DNA of 37,920 bases from Polaromonas sp. (lineage in GTDB: Bacteria; Pseudomonadota; Gammaproteobacteria; Burkholderiales; Burkholderiaceae_C). Positions within the stretch are counted from its first letter, which is position 1; every line of letters begins with the position of its first letter. Below, in pieces: positions 31,559 to 36,152 of the stretch. Where the stretch lies: assembly GCA_028292745.1 (NCBI GenBank), contig JAQGLT010000011.1, positions 1-37,920 on the forward strand. Direction: 5' to 3'. The position numbers and the translations under genes are program-made. Below the pieces are notes generated by a model. It was not told the DNA's origin. It saw nothing but the letters and a program-made list of their open reading frames with translations, and did not search any database.

Positions 31559-31786
31559 TTAGTTGTCGGTGCCCGGCAGCACCGCATCGGCGGTGGCACC
31601 GATGGCCGAGCCGGCGATGCGGGCCGTGCCGATGACCGCATTGGCCGCCAGTCCGACCGTCCCGACCGCCACCGAGGCCACGGTATCGACCACCGCGACC
31701 ACGGCGCATCCCGGCAGGACCAGCGTAGCCAGGCTGAGGAGCGCCAGGGCGCGCAGGCGGGTGGGAAAGTGCGGCAACAGCTTCAT
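31559..31786 (-). CDS. Small predicted lipoprotein
   Basis: A 75-residue protein. The signal peptide (basic start MKLLPHFPTRLRAL, hydrophobic ALLSLATLV) ends in a lipobox LPGC, placing the lipidated cysteine at about residue 27. The mature part is Ala/Val/Gly-rich (VVAVVDTVASVAVGTVGLAANAVIGTARIAG) and looks like a membrane-hugging or amphipathic repeat of about 11-13 residues with a short polar end. I do not recognise a function; similar tiny lipoproteins occur in many proteobacteria. It sits just downstream of metG on the same strand. Confidence 0.72.
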   Translation of the reverse strand: MKLLPHFPTRLRALALLSLATLVLPGCAVVAVVDTVASVAVGTVGLAANAVIGTARIAGSAIGATADAVLPGTDN

Positions 31787-31814: not shown

Positions 31815-33968
31815 TTAGTGAATGCGCATGCCCGGCGTGGCGCCCGGCACGGGTTCGAGCAGATAAATGCCGGGGTTGGCTTTCTCGTCGGCATGGCTGG
31901 CGGCCAGCACCATGCCTTCGCTGATGCCGAACTTCATCTTGCGCGGCGCCAGGTTGGCCACCAGCACCGTGTGCCTGCCGATCAGGTCTGCGGGCGGGTA
32001 GCTGGCGGCAATGCCGCTGAAGACAGTGCGCAGCCTGCCTTCGCCGGCGTCCAGCGTCAGGCGCAGCAGCTTGACCGAGCCTTGCACGGCTTCGCAGTTG
32101 ACGATCCGGGCGATGCGCAAGTCCACCTTGGCGAACTCGTCGATGGTGATGGGCGGGGCAATGGCTTCGCCGCCGGGGGGCAGCGAGGGCGCAGCGGCGC
32201 CGGCCGTGGGCGCGGTGTGTTCCGCGCCGTCAGGTGCTCCACTTTCGATAGCTGAAAGTGCAGGCACTGTATGCGCTGGCGGCTCAAACAATGCATCAAG
32301 CTGCTTCACGTCGACGCGCTGCATGAGGTGGGTGTAGGGCTTGATGACATGGCCGGCCGGCAGCTTGACAATGGCCGACTCCCATTGCTGCACGTCAGTG
32401 CCCAGCCAGTCGCTGACCTGCGCCGCCAGGCGCGGCAAAATGGGCGCGAGCATGACGCTCAGGTCCTTGAACAGGCCGACCGCCGTGGTGCAGACCATCT
32501 GCAGTTCCGCATCGCGGCCAGGGTCCTTGGCGATGACCCAGGGGGCCTTGCGGTCCACGTACTGGTTCACCTGATCGGCGAAATTCATGATGACGCGAAT
32601 GGCCTTGGCATAGTCGCGGCCCTCGTAAAAGTCCTTGATTTCATTCAGCGAAGAAGACGCCAGGGCGTAGAGCGCATGCGCCTCGGGATCTTCCGTGCCC
32701 AGCTGGCCCGCGAACCGCTTGCTGATGAAGCCGGCCGCGCGCGAGGCGATGTTGACGTATTTGCCGATGAGGTCGCTGTTCACCCGCGCCATGAAGTCGT
32801 CGGCGTTGAAGTCGATGTCTTCGTTGCGCGCGCTGAGCTTGGCGGCCAGGTAGTAGCGCAGCCATTCGGGGTTCATGCCCAGGCTGAGGTACTTGAGCGG
32901 GTCCAGGCCGGTGCCGCGGCTCTTGCTCATCTTCTCGCCGTTGTTCACCGTCAGGAAGCCATGCACGAAGATGTTGTCGGGCGTTTTGCGTCCGCTGAAA
33001 TGCAGCATCGCCGGCCAGAACAGCGTGTGGAAAGTGACGATGTCCTTGCCGATGAAGTGGTACTGCTCCAGGCGCGGGTCGGCCATGCAGGCGTCGTAGT
33101 CAAGGCCTTGCCGGTCGAGCAGGTTTTTCAGCGAGGCCAGGTAGCCGACCGGCGCGTCCAGCCAGACATAGAAATACTTGCCCGGCGCGTCGGGAATCTC
33201 GATGCCGAAGTAGGGCGCGTCCCGGCTGATGTCCCAGTCGCCCAGGCCTTCGCTTTGCGTGCCGTCGGCGTTGTCGCGCACCGAAAACCATTCCCTGACC
33301 TTGTTGGCCACCTCGGGCTGCAGCTTGCCGTCCTGCGTCCACTGCTCCAGAAACGCCACGCAGCGCGGGTCGGACAGCTTGAAGAAAAAATGCTCCGAGC
33401 TTTTGAGCACCGGCGTGGTGCCCGACAGCGCCGAGTACGGCTGGATCAGGTCGGTCGGCGCGTACACCGCGCCGCAGACCTCGCAGTTGTCGCCGTACTG
33501 GTCCTTCGCGTGGCACCTCGGGCATTCGCCCTTGATGAAGCGGTCGGGCAGAAACATGTTCTTTTCCGGGTCGAAGAACTGCTCGATCGTCTTGGTCTCG
33601 ATCAGCGAGCCGTCGGGGTTGTCCCGCAGGTCGCGGTAGATCTGCCGGGCCAGTTCATGGTTTTCCGGCGAATCGGTCGAGCTCCAGTTGTCAAAGCTGA
33701 TGTGAAAGCCGTCCAGGTAGGGCTTGCGGCCGGCGGCGATCTCGGCCACGAACTGCTGCGGCGTCTTGCCGGCTTTTTCGGCGGCGATCATGATGGGCGC
33801 GCCATGGGCATCGTCGGCGCCGACAAAATTCACCGCATGGCCCTGCATGCGCTGAAAGCGCACCCAGATGTCGGCCTGGATGTATTCCATGATGTGACCG
33901 ATGTGGAAATTGCCGTTGGCGTAGGGCAGGGCGGTGGTGACGAAGAGTTTTCTTTTTTCGATGGTCAT
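31815..33968 (-). CDS. metG: Methionyl-tRNA synthetase
   Basis: A 717-residue class I synthetase charging elongator and initiator tRNA with methionine. The HIGH motif is His22-Ile-Gly-His25. The zinc knuckle is Cys149-x2-Cys152 and Cys162-x2-Cys165, and the KMSKS loop is at 346-350. A C-terminal EMAP-type tRNA-binding domain (about 610-717) contains [31 protein letters not shown]. The linker before it (about 560-605) is Ala/Pro-rich and includes a copy of the dispersed repeat at 32247-32284. The ATG overlaps the stop of the PIN-toxin gene upstream as ATGA, an unusual coupling for this essential gene. Confidence 0.97.
32247..32284 (+). repeat. Dispersed repeat copy E inside metG
   Basis: The plus-strand sequence begins GATAGCTGAAAGTGC and ends TGCGCTGGCGGCT and aligns without gaps to copies A and C. 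It falls in the metG linker between the catalytic/anticodon part and the C-terminal tRNA-binding domain, encoding on the minus strand about [13 protein letters not shown] (residues 562-574). It keeps the reading frame. Confidence 0.55.
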
Positions 33969-34375
33969 AGTCGGTCCAGAAATTCAGTGGCGGTCAGAAT
34001 GGCAGGCCATTTTCCCTTCAGGACGAGGAGATCTTTATCGCCTGTGATGAGGTGCATGGGCCTGGCCTGGGTGAGGAGCGCCATCAGGTAGTCGTCCTTC
34101 GGGTCGCGCCATACCGCTGGATAAGGCGGCGTCAAGGGATGAAAAGTGCATCCGGCATGCATCTGCTGAACGAATGCTTGCGCGGTGGCTGCACTGCCGG
34201 CAATCCGGCCAATGATTTTTGGGCGTGCCAGCACACGGCTCAATTCTTCCAGCTGCTGGCTGCAGCTCATCCATTCAAAAGCATCTTCACGCCACAGCCC
34301 GATGATGGCCGCAGCCCGTTTTTCGGACTTGAAAAGTGCGGACAGAACCGTGTTGGTGTCCAGAACCAGCTTCAC
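33965..34375 (-). CDS. PIN-domain toxin of a type II toxin-antitoxin pair
   Basis: A 136-residue protein starting at GTG, which overlaps the antitoxin stop as GTGA. The PIN fold is visible: [15 protein letters not shown] with Asp6, Glu44 in [15 protein letters not shown], the [11 protein letters not shown] motif with Asp94/Asp95, and LITGDKDLL with Asp113 and Asp115. These acidic residues would bind Mg for RNA cleavage. It resembles the COG1569-type 'PIN-family toxin component' more than classical VapC. Its target is unknown; some VapC proteins cut initiator tRNA-fMet. The stop overlaps the metG ATG. Confidence 0.88.
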
Positions 34376-34686
34376 GGAACGGGCTTGTCCTGCTCAGACT
34401 GTTGCTCGGCCTGCATGTCTGAACGCACGGCCTTGACTTCCGTATTCACCAGTTCCTCAACTTCGGCCTCACTCAAATCCTCGAAGCCTTTTGAAAACTT
34501 GGCCCACAGTTTCTCGAATTCCCCATCATTCTTGCGCCGCATGCGCTCGAACGTGGCCATGTCCACCAGCGCGGCGACCGGCTTGCCGGCCTTGGTGATG
34601 ACGATGTTGTCGCGGCGGTATTGCACGCCGTTGAGCAATTCGCCCAGGTTCTGGCGGACATTCATGGCGGTGGCTTCGCGTAGCAT
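34372..34686 (-). CDS. Phd/YefM-family antitoxin
   Basis: A 104-residue protein from the ATG at 34684-34686, preceded by AAAGGAG at ideal spacing; a longer upstream reading lacks this. The N-terminal part (MLREATAMNVRQNLGELLNGV, then DNIVITKAGKPVAALVDMATFERM) is the Phd/YefM DNA-binding and dimerisation fold. The C-terminal half is acidic and probably disordered until it wraps the toxin (FEDLSEAEVEELVNTEVKAVRSDMQAEQQ). It would neutralise the PIN toxin and, as in related pairs, repress the operon by binding the promoter; a perfect palindrome lies upstream at 34722-34733. It overlaps the toxin start. Confidence 0.88.
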   Translation of the reverse strand: MLREATAMNVRQNLGELLNGVQYRRDNIVITKAGKPVAALVDMATFERMRRKNDGEFEKLWAKFSKGFEDLSEAEVEELVNTEVKAVRSDMQAEQQSEQDKPVP

Positions 34687-34721
34687 GGCAGCTCCTTTGA
34701 TTGGGTAGGTTGCCTTAATTC

Positions 34722-34733
34722 TATCAATTGATA
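34722..34733. promoter_or_regulatory. Candidate operator of the toxin-antitoxin operon
   Basis: TATCAATTGATA is a perfect 12-base palindrome 36 bases upstream of the antitoxin ATG, beside the -10-like TAGAAT on the minus strand. Phd/YefM antitoxins bind short palindromes at such positions. If real, it would influence metG expression too. Confidence 0.5.
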
Positions 34734-34796
34734 TGGTCTGGCATGAAAACACCCAGGCTCTTGAAAGGCTTGGGACATTCATGATGCTCTGTTTTA

Positions 34797-34833
34797 GATA
34801 GCTGGCTGCGCATGCAGGGAAAGGGCTGGAGCC
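34797..34833 (+). repeat. Dispersed repeat copy F
   Basis: The segment begins GATAGCTGGCTGCGC and ends GGGCTGGAGCC, aligning without gaps to the other copies. It lies in the 374-base gap between the antitoxin and mrp genes, upstream of both. Apart from this, the candidate operator and the mrp ribosome binding site, I see no other feature in that gap. Confidence 0.65.
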
Positions 34834-35060
34834 ATCAAATGCTTAAACTAAGGGTCTGGGCAGGCTTAACAGGCTTGGGTGAGCAGCAACCGAAAATACA
34901 AGGTCATTGAAGGCAAAACCCAGGCACACGACTCCTGGCTTCCATCCCGTGAAGCCAAGCCCGCCGGCGCGGCGTTAGACTTCCCTCAATCTTTGGCAGC
35001 CCGCGCGCCTTCCCTGAAAAAGCGGCTTCCTGCCTTGTCAACCTCACTGGAGATTTCCCG

Positions 35061-36152
35061 ATGGCTGTAGAACAACAGGCAATTCTGAGCGCCCTGCAAA
35101 CCGTGCTCGACCCCAACACCGGCAAGGATTTCGTTTCCACCCGCGCGCTGAAAAACCTGCAGGTCAATGGCGACGACGTGGCCTTCGACATCGAACTCGG
35201 CTATCCGGCCAAGAGCCAGATCGCCGGCCTGCGCAAGAGCCTGATCGCCGCCGCCAGGGGCGTGGCCGGCGTGGGCAATGTGTCGGTCAACATCACGGTG
35301 AAGATCGCCAGCCACAGCGTGCAGCGCGGCGTGCAGCTGCTGCCAAACGTGAAGAACATCATCGCCGTGGCCTCGGGCAAGGGCGGCGTGGGCAAGAGCA
35401 CCACCGCCGTCAATCTGGCGCTGGCCCTTTCTGCCGAAGGCGCGGCGGTCGGCCTGCTGGACGCCGACATCTACGGTCCGAGCGTGCCGATGATGATGGG
35501 CATCGAAGGCCGGCCCGAGAGCATCGACGGCAAGAACATGGAGCCGCTGGAAAACTACGGCCTGCAGGTCATGTCCATCGGTTTCCTGGTCGCGCAGGAC
35601 GAGGCCATGATCTGGCGCGGCCCGATGGCGACGCAGGCGCTGGAGCAGCTGCTGCGCCAGACCAACTGGAAAGACCTGGACTACCTGATCGTGGACATGC
35701 CGCCCGGCACCGGCGACATCCAGCTGACGCTGAGCCAGCGCGTGCCGATGACCGGCGCGGTCATCGTCACCACGCCGCAAGACATCGCCCTGCTGGATGC
35801 CAAGAAGGGCATCAAGATGTTCGAGAAGGTCGGCGTGCCCATCCTGGGCATCGTCGAGAACATGGCGGTGCACATCTGCAGCCAGTGCGGCCATGCCGAG
35901 CACATCTTCGGCGAAGGCGGAGGCAAGAAAATGGCGGCCGACTATGCCATGGACTACCTCGGCGCGCTGCCGCTGGACATCAAGATCCGCCTGCAGGCCG
36001 ACAGCGGCATGCCGACCGTGGTGGCGGACCCCGACGGCGAGGTGGCCGGCATCTACAAGGCCGTGGCGCGCAAGGTGGCGATCACGGTGGCGGCCAAGTC
36101 CAAGGACTTCTCGGCCAAGTTCCCGACCATCACCATCAGCAAGAACACCTGA
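35061..36152 (+). CDS. apbC: Mrp/ApbC iron-sulfur carrier ATPase
   Basis: A 363-residue cytoplasmic P-loop protein thought to carry and deliver 4Fe-4S clusters. An N-terminal DUF59/MIP18-like domain (about 1-85) is followed by the deviant Walker A motif ASGKGGVGKSTT (about 104-115), the DADIYGPSVPMMMG segment, DYLIVDMPPGTGD, and the cluster-binding CxxC Cys273/Cys276 in HICSQCGHAEHIFG. GGAG precedes the ATG by about eight bases. It is divergent from the TA-metG operon, and the metG/mrp neighbourhood is widespread in proteobacteria. Confidence 0.95.
   Translation: MAVEQQAILSALQTVLDPNTGKDFVSTRALKNLQVNGDDVAFDIELGYPAKSQIAGLRKSLIAAARGVAGVGNVSVNITVKIASHSVQRGVQLLPNVKNIIAVASGKGGVGKSTTAVNLALALSAEGAAVGLLDADIYGPSVPMMMGIEGRPESIDGKNMEPLENYGLQVMSIGFLVAQDEAMIWRGPMATQALEQLLRQTNWKDLDYLIVDMPPGTGDIQLTLSQRVPMTGAVIVTTPQDIALLDAKKGIKMFEKVGVPILGIVENMAVHICSQCGHAEHIFGEGGGKKMAADYAMDYLGALPLDIKIRLQADSGMPTVVADPDGEVAGIYKAVARKVAITVAAKSKDFSAKFPTITISKNT

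Follow-up and report, generated by a model that had tools for sequence, protein, structure and literature searches.

PHD-PIN pairs are counted among the toxin-antitoxin pairs in PMC2701414. Descriptions of such pairs beside host genes (PMC3920265, PMC7167474) and of antitoxin-half swapping (PMC10440598) make both already known, and one review states that the way in which chromosomal toxin-antitoxin pairs move and integrate is unelucidated (PMC7167474). Reduced metG transcription is reported to increase ampicillin persistence in Escherichia coli (PMC11004401). The locus described here shares with the type II Phd-PIN pairs (PF02604 with PF13470/TIGR00305), as these appear in the cited accounts, an antitoxin gene in first place, gene overlap, the same domains and an inverted repeat at the promoter, the latter being predicted here. 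It differs from them in a third gene, metG, that apparently lacks a promoter element of its own, and in a toxin that appears to have been swapped in place together with the C-terminus of the antitoxin.

The window, that is, the whole 37,920-nucleotide stretch of Polaromonas sp. DNA that was analysed, carries an antitoxin gene, a toxin gene and metG in one chained unit (Table 1). The antitoxin exceeds the cut-offs of PF02604 (34.5 bits; cut-off 29.8) and TIGR01552 (37.8 bits; cut-off 20.8), and its profile matches P1 Phd (3hry) with an E-value of 5.5e-4. The toxin scores 55.6 bits against PF13470 (PIN_3; cut-off 27) and 47.8 bits against TIGR00305 (cut-off 29.15), with a predicted structure that adopts the PIN fold at a pLDDT of 92.4; metG was assigned to NF001100, above the cut-off, by profile search. 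A small lipoprotein-like open reading frame is predicted after metG (31559-31786, minus strand), below the NF038104 cut-off; many relatives keep it there. Rfam returned no matches within the window.

Table 1. Positions of the unit, its junctions and its predicted control elements in the window.
Feature	Positions	Strand	Remark
metG, methionine--tRNA ligase	31815..33968	-	717 aa; third gene of the unit
metG leader codons AGA AAA	33948..33953	-	carriers only, within the genus
ATGA overlap, toxin stop/metG start	33965..33968	-	identical in 7/7 carriers
Toxin gene, PIN_3	33965..34375	-	136 aa; GTG start
GTGA overlap, antitoxin stop/toxin start	34372..34375	-	
Antitoxin gene, Phd/YefM-type	34372..34686	-	104 aa; first gene of the unit
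AGGAG ribosome-binding site of the antitoxin	34692..34696	-	-7.9 kcal/mol
TGATAGAAT, predicted extended -10 of the three-gene operon	34718..34726	-	TGATANAAT here in 6/7 carriers
TATCAATTGATA palindrome, predicted operator	34722..34733		sole exact copy in the assembly
apbC/mrp	35061..36152	+	divergent neighbour upstream; context, outside the unit

A profile built from four antitoxins was run on 87 genomes of the genus, 399 of the family, 399 of the order and 274 of the class, and on 8 genomes of the genus of G428; these samples overlap. Carriers of the metG-fused clade scored at least 182.9 bits and the next best locus 123.5 bits, the cut being placed on this gap after the data had been seen. 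Seven genomes of two genera are carriers: G000 (the window), G037, G039, G469 and G474 among the 87, and G428 and G1139 among the 8. G037, G428 and G1139 would correspond to the environmental isolate Polaromonas glacialis R3-9, Comamonadaceae bacterium OS-1 and a Rhodoferax sp. MAG, respectively. A survey of PIN-metG overlap in relatives, which the first-pass annotation had proposed, found metG directly after the antitoxin-toxin pair and joined to it in all seven clade members; metG was absent from the flanks of all 33 other antitoxin loci (at most 123.5 bits; flanks of up to 1.5 kb, shorter at contig ends). The fusion of the pair to metG is no one-off and goes beyond chance. An assembly artefact was considered and rejected: in Polaromonas glacialis R3-9 the unit lies within a scaffold of 4.1 Mb, and in G428 on a single contig of 5.1 Mb. 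Two metG-unlinked antitoxin relatives, L089 (G467) and L090 (G012), contain an in-frame TAG, and these genes may be decayed. Elsewhere, in a Patescibacteria MAG (L073, 4001-7263), a distant PIN relative and a metG-like gene occupy opposite strands, separated by about 1.3 kb and unfused; this case is probably unrelated.

The same annotation had read the three genes as chained by GTGA and ATGA overlaps, with metG as the third gene of a toxin-antitoxin operon. Both overlaps were borne out, and the chain, together with an ATGA junction identical in all seven clade members, supports the placement of metG as third gene of the unit. The antitoxin and toxin genes overlap by four bases, antitoxin first, in every carrier (GTGA in two, ATGA in five). 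Because the ATGA start is the sole in-frame ATG, GTG or TTG in the first 25 codons of metG in 7/7 carriers, the toxin/metG overlap is no annotation choice. It requires the last codon of the toxin to end in A; this codon is CTA in six carriers and TTA in one, and CTA and TTA together account for 2 of the 228 leucine codons in four genes of the window. Ribosome-binding sites of the antitoxin are strong across the seven carriers (-5.1 to -8.2 kcal/mol). Those of metG are weak (0.1 to -3.5 kcal/mol), which is no proof of coupling because the metG sites of non-carriers are likewise weak (median -0.1 kcal/mol, n=69). The ATGA overlap leaves no space for a terminator between toxin and metG. One metG was found in the assembly of the window; the gene is cleanly single-copy in G000, G037, G039, G428 and G474, and contig ends cut it in G469 and G1139.

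The pattern TA(A/G)(A/G)AT, broadened from TAA(A/G)AT after the data had been seen since G471 has TTAGAAT, is found no more than 100 nt from the metG ATG at 86/86 non-carrier loci (69/69 and 17/17). By comparison, it occurs in 16 of 3044 other 100-nt segments taken from these 69 loci and, among shuffled upstreams, in 68 of 1380; it is likely a -10 element. Together the 86 loci represent 85 genomes: 79 of the genus sample of 87 (one with two metG genes) and six of the eight in the second genus; G009, G023 and G054, which lack the 5' end of metG, stand outside all promoter counts. In five non-carrier loci (L007, L013, L014, L017 and L029) metG stands beside another divergent gene, not apbC, and the same -10 is kept. 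Judging by eye, we take this divergent gene to resemble lon, and likewise the open reading frames of non-carriers with a long gap between apbC and metG. Because the element is kept where the neighbour is lon-like instead of apbC, it belongs to metG. Other insertions between apbC and metG were examined as a separate candidate and rejected; long-gap non-carriers have different genes there and keep the -10.

In all seven carriers the cassette occupies the stretch where non-carriers have this -10, and the pattern is absent from the 150 nt before the metG anchor. Alignments of carrier and non-carrier upstream regions continue through the apbC side, or for G428 against G370 through the gene upstream, and end before the -10 of the non-carriers. 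From 400 nt upstream of the antitoxin to metG, the carriers contain the pattern just as TAGAAT in G000 and G428, where the broadened form matches the own element of the cassette, and as one TAAAAT in G1139, located within the toxin gene some 250 nt ahead of metG; the antitoxin and toxin genes of the other six carriers lack it. The interpretation in the first-pass annotation is upheld in part: its suggestion that an essential gene makes the pair hard to lose fits the absence of the usual metG -10 in 7/7 carriers. Two contrary outcomes that it had named did not appear: no promoter-like element common to the carriers was found within the pair, and relatives devoid of the pair that share the upstream promoter of the carriers were not seen, their promoter element being apparently a different one.

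The carriers have a sole promoter-like element in common, an extended -10 that lies before the antitoxin gene and overlaps a palindrome. In six of the seven, TGATANAAT lies 32-50 nt before the antitoxin gene; five carry TCAATTGA, the core of the palindrome, and in those five it overlaps TGATANAAT. G474 and G469 carry variants, and G469 has neither an exact TCAATTGA nor an exact TGATANAAT. The palindrome TATCAATTGATA has one exact copy across the 3.78 Mb, 88%-complete assembly, and TCAATTGATA is expected 0.02 times in the window. With the inverted repeat sitting over the extended -10, a role as operator is predicted. A consensus promoter scan of 33900-35150 returned no sites and missed even the proposed extended -10, so that a cryptic internal promoter is still conceivable.

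Taken together, a model emerges that we consider moderately probable: the locus is a promoter-capturing toxin-antitoxin cassette, in which MetRS expression would be carried by the pair and the pair thereby made undeletable. A Phd-PIN cassette would have taken the place of the metG promoter, along with the leader and the initial codons of the gene, MetRS becoming the third product of a self-repressed transcript. Transcription would begin at the extended -10 and be repressed through TATCAATTGATA by the antitoxin, either by itself or together with the toxin; metG would be translated via stop-restart at the ATGA. On the evidence of these upstream regions, metG is now probably switched on only via the own promoter of the pair. 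Deletion of the pair, loss of the promoter or a polar mutation would each remove MetRS, and the essential metG would anchor the pair beyond ordinary addiction; a drop in antitoxin would derepress the operon, with antitoxin and MetRS rising together. The pair would be very hard to lose because the transcription of metG is predicted to run from its promoter alone. Such a lock would be either recent or impermanent, because the unit occurs in just 5/87 and 2/8 genomes of the two genera.

Some of the same observations can be read as a neutral landing of the pair at a recombination-prone spot, where a cryptic promoter in the antitoxin or toxin gene would serve metG and the overlap would be inconsequential. 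Such an account accommodates the patchy distribution, with its repeated gain or loss, the one TAAAAT in the G1139 toxin gene, and the statement in a review that toxin-antitoxin pairs land in certain intergenic regions (PMC7167474). It sits poorly with a four-base junction that is identical in 7/7 carriers and uses rare leucine codons, and with the six carriers whose antitoxin and toxin genes are free of TA(A/G)(A/G)AT. The toxin dN/dS values (0.141 for G000-G037 and 0.097 for G474-G039), which indicate purifying selection in both pairs tested, also argue against it, and we regard a neutral landing as distinctly unlikely.

Across the carriers, identity is 83-100% over residues 1-60 of the antitoxin and 39-90% in the toxins. 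G428 and G1139 share 100% identity over antitoxin residues 1-60, 43% over residues 61-95 and 39% in the toxin; in their DNA, identity is 90% at the antitoxin start, 63% in the toxin and 90% at the metG start. The comparison of G037 and G469 gives 100%, 40% and 47% for the same three protein segments. Two toxin types, 39-64% alike between them, cut across the genera: i) G000, G037 and G1139, and ii) G469, G428, G474 and G039; the antitoxin C-terminus tracks the toxin type. As judged from these identities, the toxin and the antitoxin C-terminus appear to have been swapped between constant flanks, and the proposed exchange would place the toxin, with the toxin-binding part of the antitoxin, between a constant antitoxin N-terminus and metG.

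Replacement of the toxin and antitoxin C-terminus at a fixed site could also mark an anti-phage module, in which phages select swapped toxin variants and linkage to metG prevents loss between attacks. The toxin profile matches 502 metagenomic proteins at E<=1e-8, and so many variants would suit this explanation. PADLOC speaks against it, antitoxin and toxin matching none of its families at E<=0.01, as does the failure to find the clade in phage records or IMG/VR; we judge an anti-phage role very unlikely. An origin of the unit in a mobile element was rejected, the antitoxin being devoid of matches in phage records or, in alignment A1, in IMG/VR. Nine plasmid matches to the antitoxin were found, all at most 47.8% identical. 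The toxins end in DRL in 105 of the 120 metagenomic matches listed (of 502), in 7/7 carriers and in none of 24 toxins unlinked to metG, of which three are truncated by early stops and two end in RRL. Because the DRL end is common to the listed matches and the carriers, metG linkage of the metagenomic toxins that bear it is suggested, and as a suggestion only.

At the conserved RK/RR position near the start of metG, AGAAAA is present in 5/5 carriers of the genus and 0/79 non-carriers; G051b, the divergent second metG of one genome, counts among the 86 promoter loci and was excluded here. The first 15 nt of metG are 96% alike among carriers, versus 82% for random sets of five (6 of 2000 as high), and over nucleotides 16-60 the carriers are no more alike than chance, so the common stretch is detectable for about 15 nt only. 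Because the excess similarity ends near nucleotide 15, a long transferred tract is not apparent and the leader codons may be convergent. In a tree built from 75 MetG N-termini (a further row, of 76 in all, was left out as too short), the carrier label changes seven times, five of them forced by well-supported (starred) branches, and it clusters no more than shuffled labels; the bootstrap is unsettled. On this tree the carriers are not one clade, yet they have cassette-specific leader codons in common. Since these shared codons belong to carriers scattered on the metG tree, the simplest reading suggests spread by recombination with the crossover in the conserved metG start; homologous recombination would carry the cassette from strain to strain, a single crossover falling near the 5' end of metG. 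Movement of whole metG together with the pair was rejected, as carrier metG genes lie beside those of non-carriers of their own genus (G428/G370 and G1139/G222). As for other metG genes encountered, G051 (completeness 100, contamination 4) has two (L138 and L139), one on a very long branch beside a divergent apbC, and this second copy may be contamination; a six-frame search found one internal TAA in the metG of G1138 (L156).

The first-pass annotation had pointed out that tRNA-fMet, on which MetRS acts, is cleaved by some PIN toxins, and that toxin activity and charging capacity could be linked in this way. Toxin residues D6, E44, D94, D95, D113 and D115 are unchanged in 7/7 carriers, and from PIN biochemistry we take them to be the catalytic residues; in another PIN toxin, D6/E43 have been demonstrated according to PMC10440598. 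A sequence search with the toxin found no PIN chain at E<=1. The top solved match of its model by E-value was AF0591 at 16% identity, with the Salmonella VapC 6ifc at rank 49. Specificity for tRNA-fMet inferred by kinship was rejected on these two results, which show no close sequence or fold kinship to the tRNA-fMet-cleaving VapCs, and tRNA-fMet cleavage by the toxin is not supported so far.

A functional partnership would give the fusion a physiological purpose: the PIN toxin would hit tRNA-Met or another part of translation, and co-derepressed metG would act as a repair or recovery arm, kept for physiology rather than for retention of the pair. The same junction in 7/7 carriers of two genera agrees with this idea, as do reports that some PIN toxins cleave tRNA-fMet (PMC4105405) and that persistence in E. 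coli depends on the MetRS level (PMC11004401). Against it stand the toxins, only 39-64% alike between carrier types and without close kinship to tRNA-fMet-cleaving VapC, and the 79 genomes of the genus that manage without the pair; for relA-mazG and dinB-yafP, moreover, a review sees no functional link of the pairs to those genes (PMC7167474). We consider a partnership unlikely.

Returning to promoter capture, a single genus contains genomes with and without the unit that are distinguished by a defined junction, which makes it testable whether a pair persists because an essential gene is transcribed from its promoter. If it does, the MetRS level would be set directly by toxin-antitoxin regulation. 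A shift in persistence could also follow from capture, given that E. coli becomes more persistent upon metG knock-down in the report of PMC11004401. A wider proposal, which we offer tentatively and hold to be somewhat doubtful, is that of a mobile cassette that survives by promoter capture: it would take control of how an essential aminoacyl-tRNA synthetase gene is transcribed and started, spread through this gene by recombination, change its toxin on the spot and place the charging of Met-tRNA under the control of a toxin-antitoxin repressor, thereby acting as a heritable persistence dial.

A literature search, made by titles and covering few subscription papers, did not meet an aminoacyl-tRNA synthetase promoter displaced by a pair, repeatedly and with in-place toxin exchange; individual elements of the model do have described counterparts. 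In Staphylococcus aureus mazEF-sigB, as described in PMC3920265, non-toxin genes downstream reach full expression only with the promoter of the toxin-antitoxin pair, similar to the single transcript through pair and metG predicted here. There, a weak terminator lies between, mazEF is not self-repressed and the downstream genes are regulators, whereas the present unit has overlapping genes and a downstream aminoacyl-tRNA synthetase. The E. coli pairs in relA-mazEF-mazG and dinB-yafNO-yafP, and ccd between folA and apaH, likewise stand beside housekeeping genes and are missing from many strains in the account of PMC7167474; relA has its own promoter there and strains that lack the pair have undisturbed operons, whereas the metG promoter element appears to be displaced. 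Like the tRNA-fMet-cleaving VapBC of PMC4105405, the pair has a PIN-domain toxin and a two-gene operon, but its PIN family is another, its antitoxin is a Phd and close sequence or fold kinship is lacking. Partner swapping as described in PMC10440598 is the counterpart of the toxin exchange, in that the DNA-binding half of the antitoxin is kept and the neutralising half follows the toxin; in the metG-fused unit, by contrast, the exchange appears to take place at a single fixed position of the chromosome whose flanks stay nearly constant, with both toxin types belonging to PIN_3.
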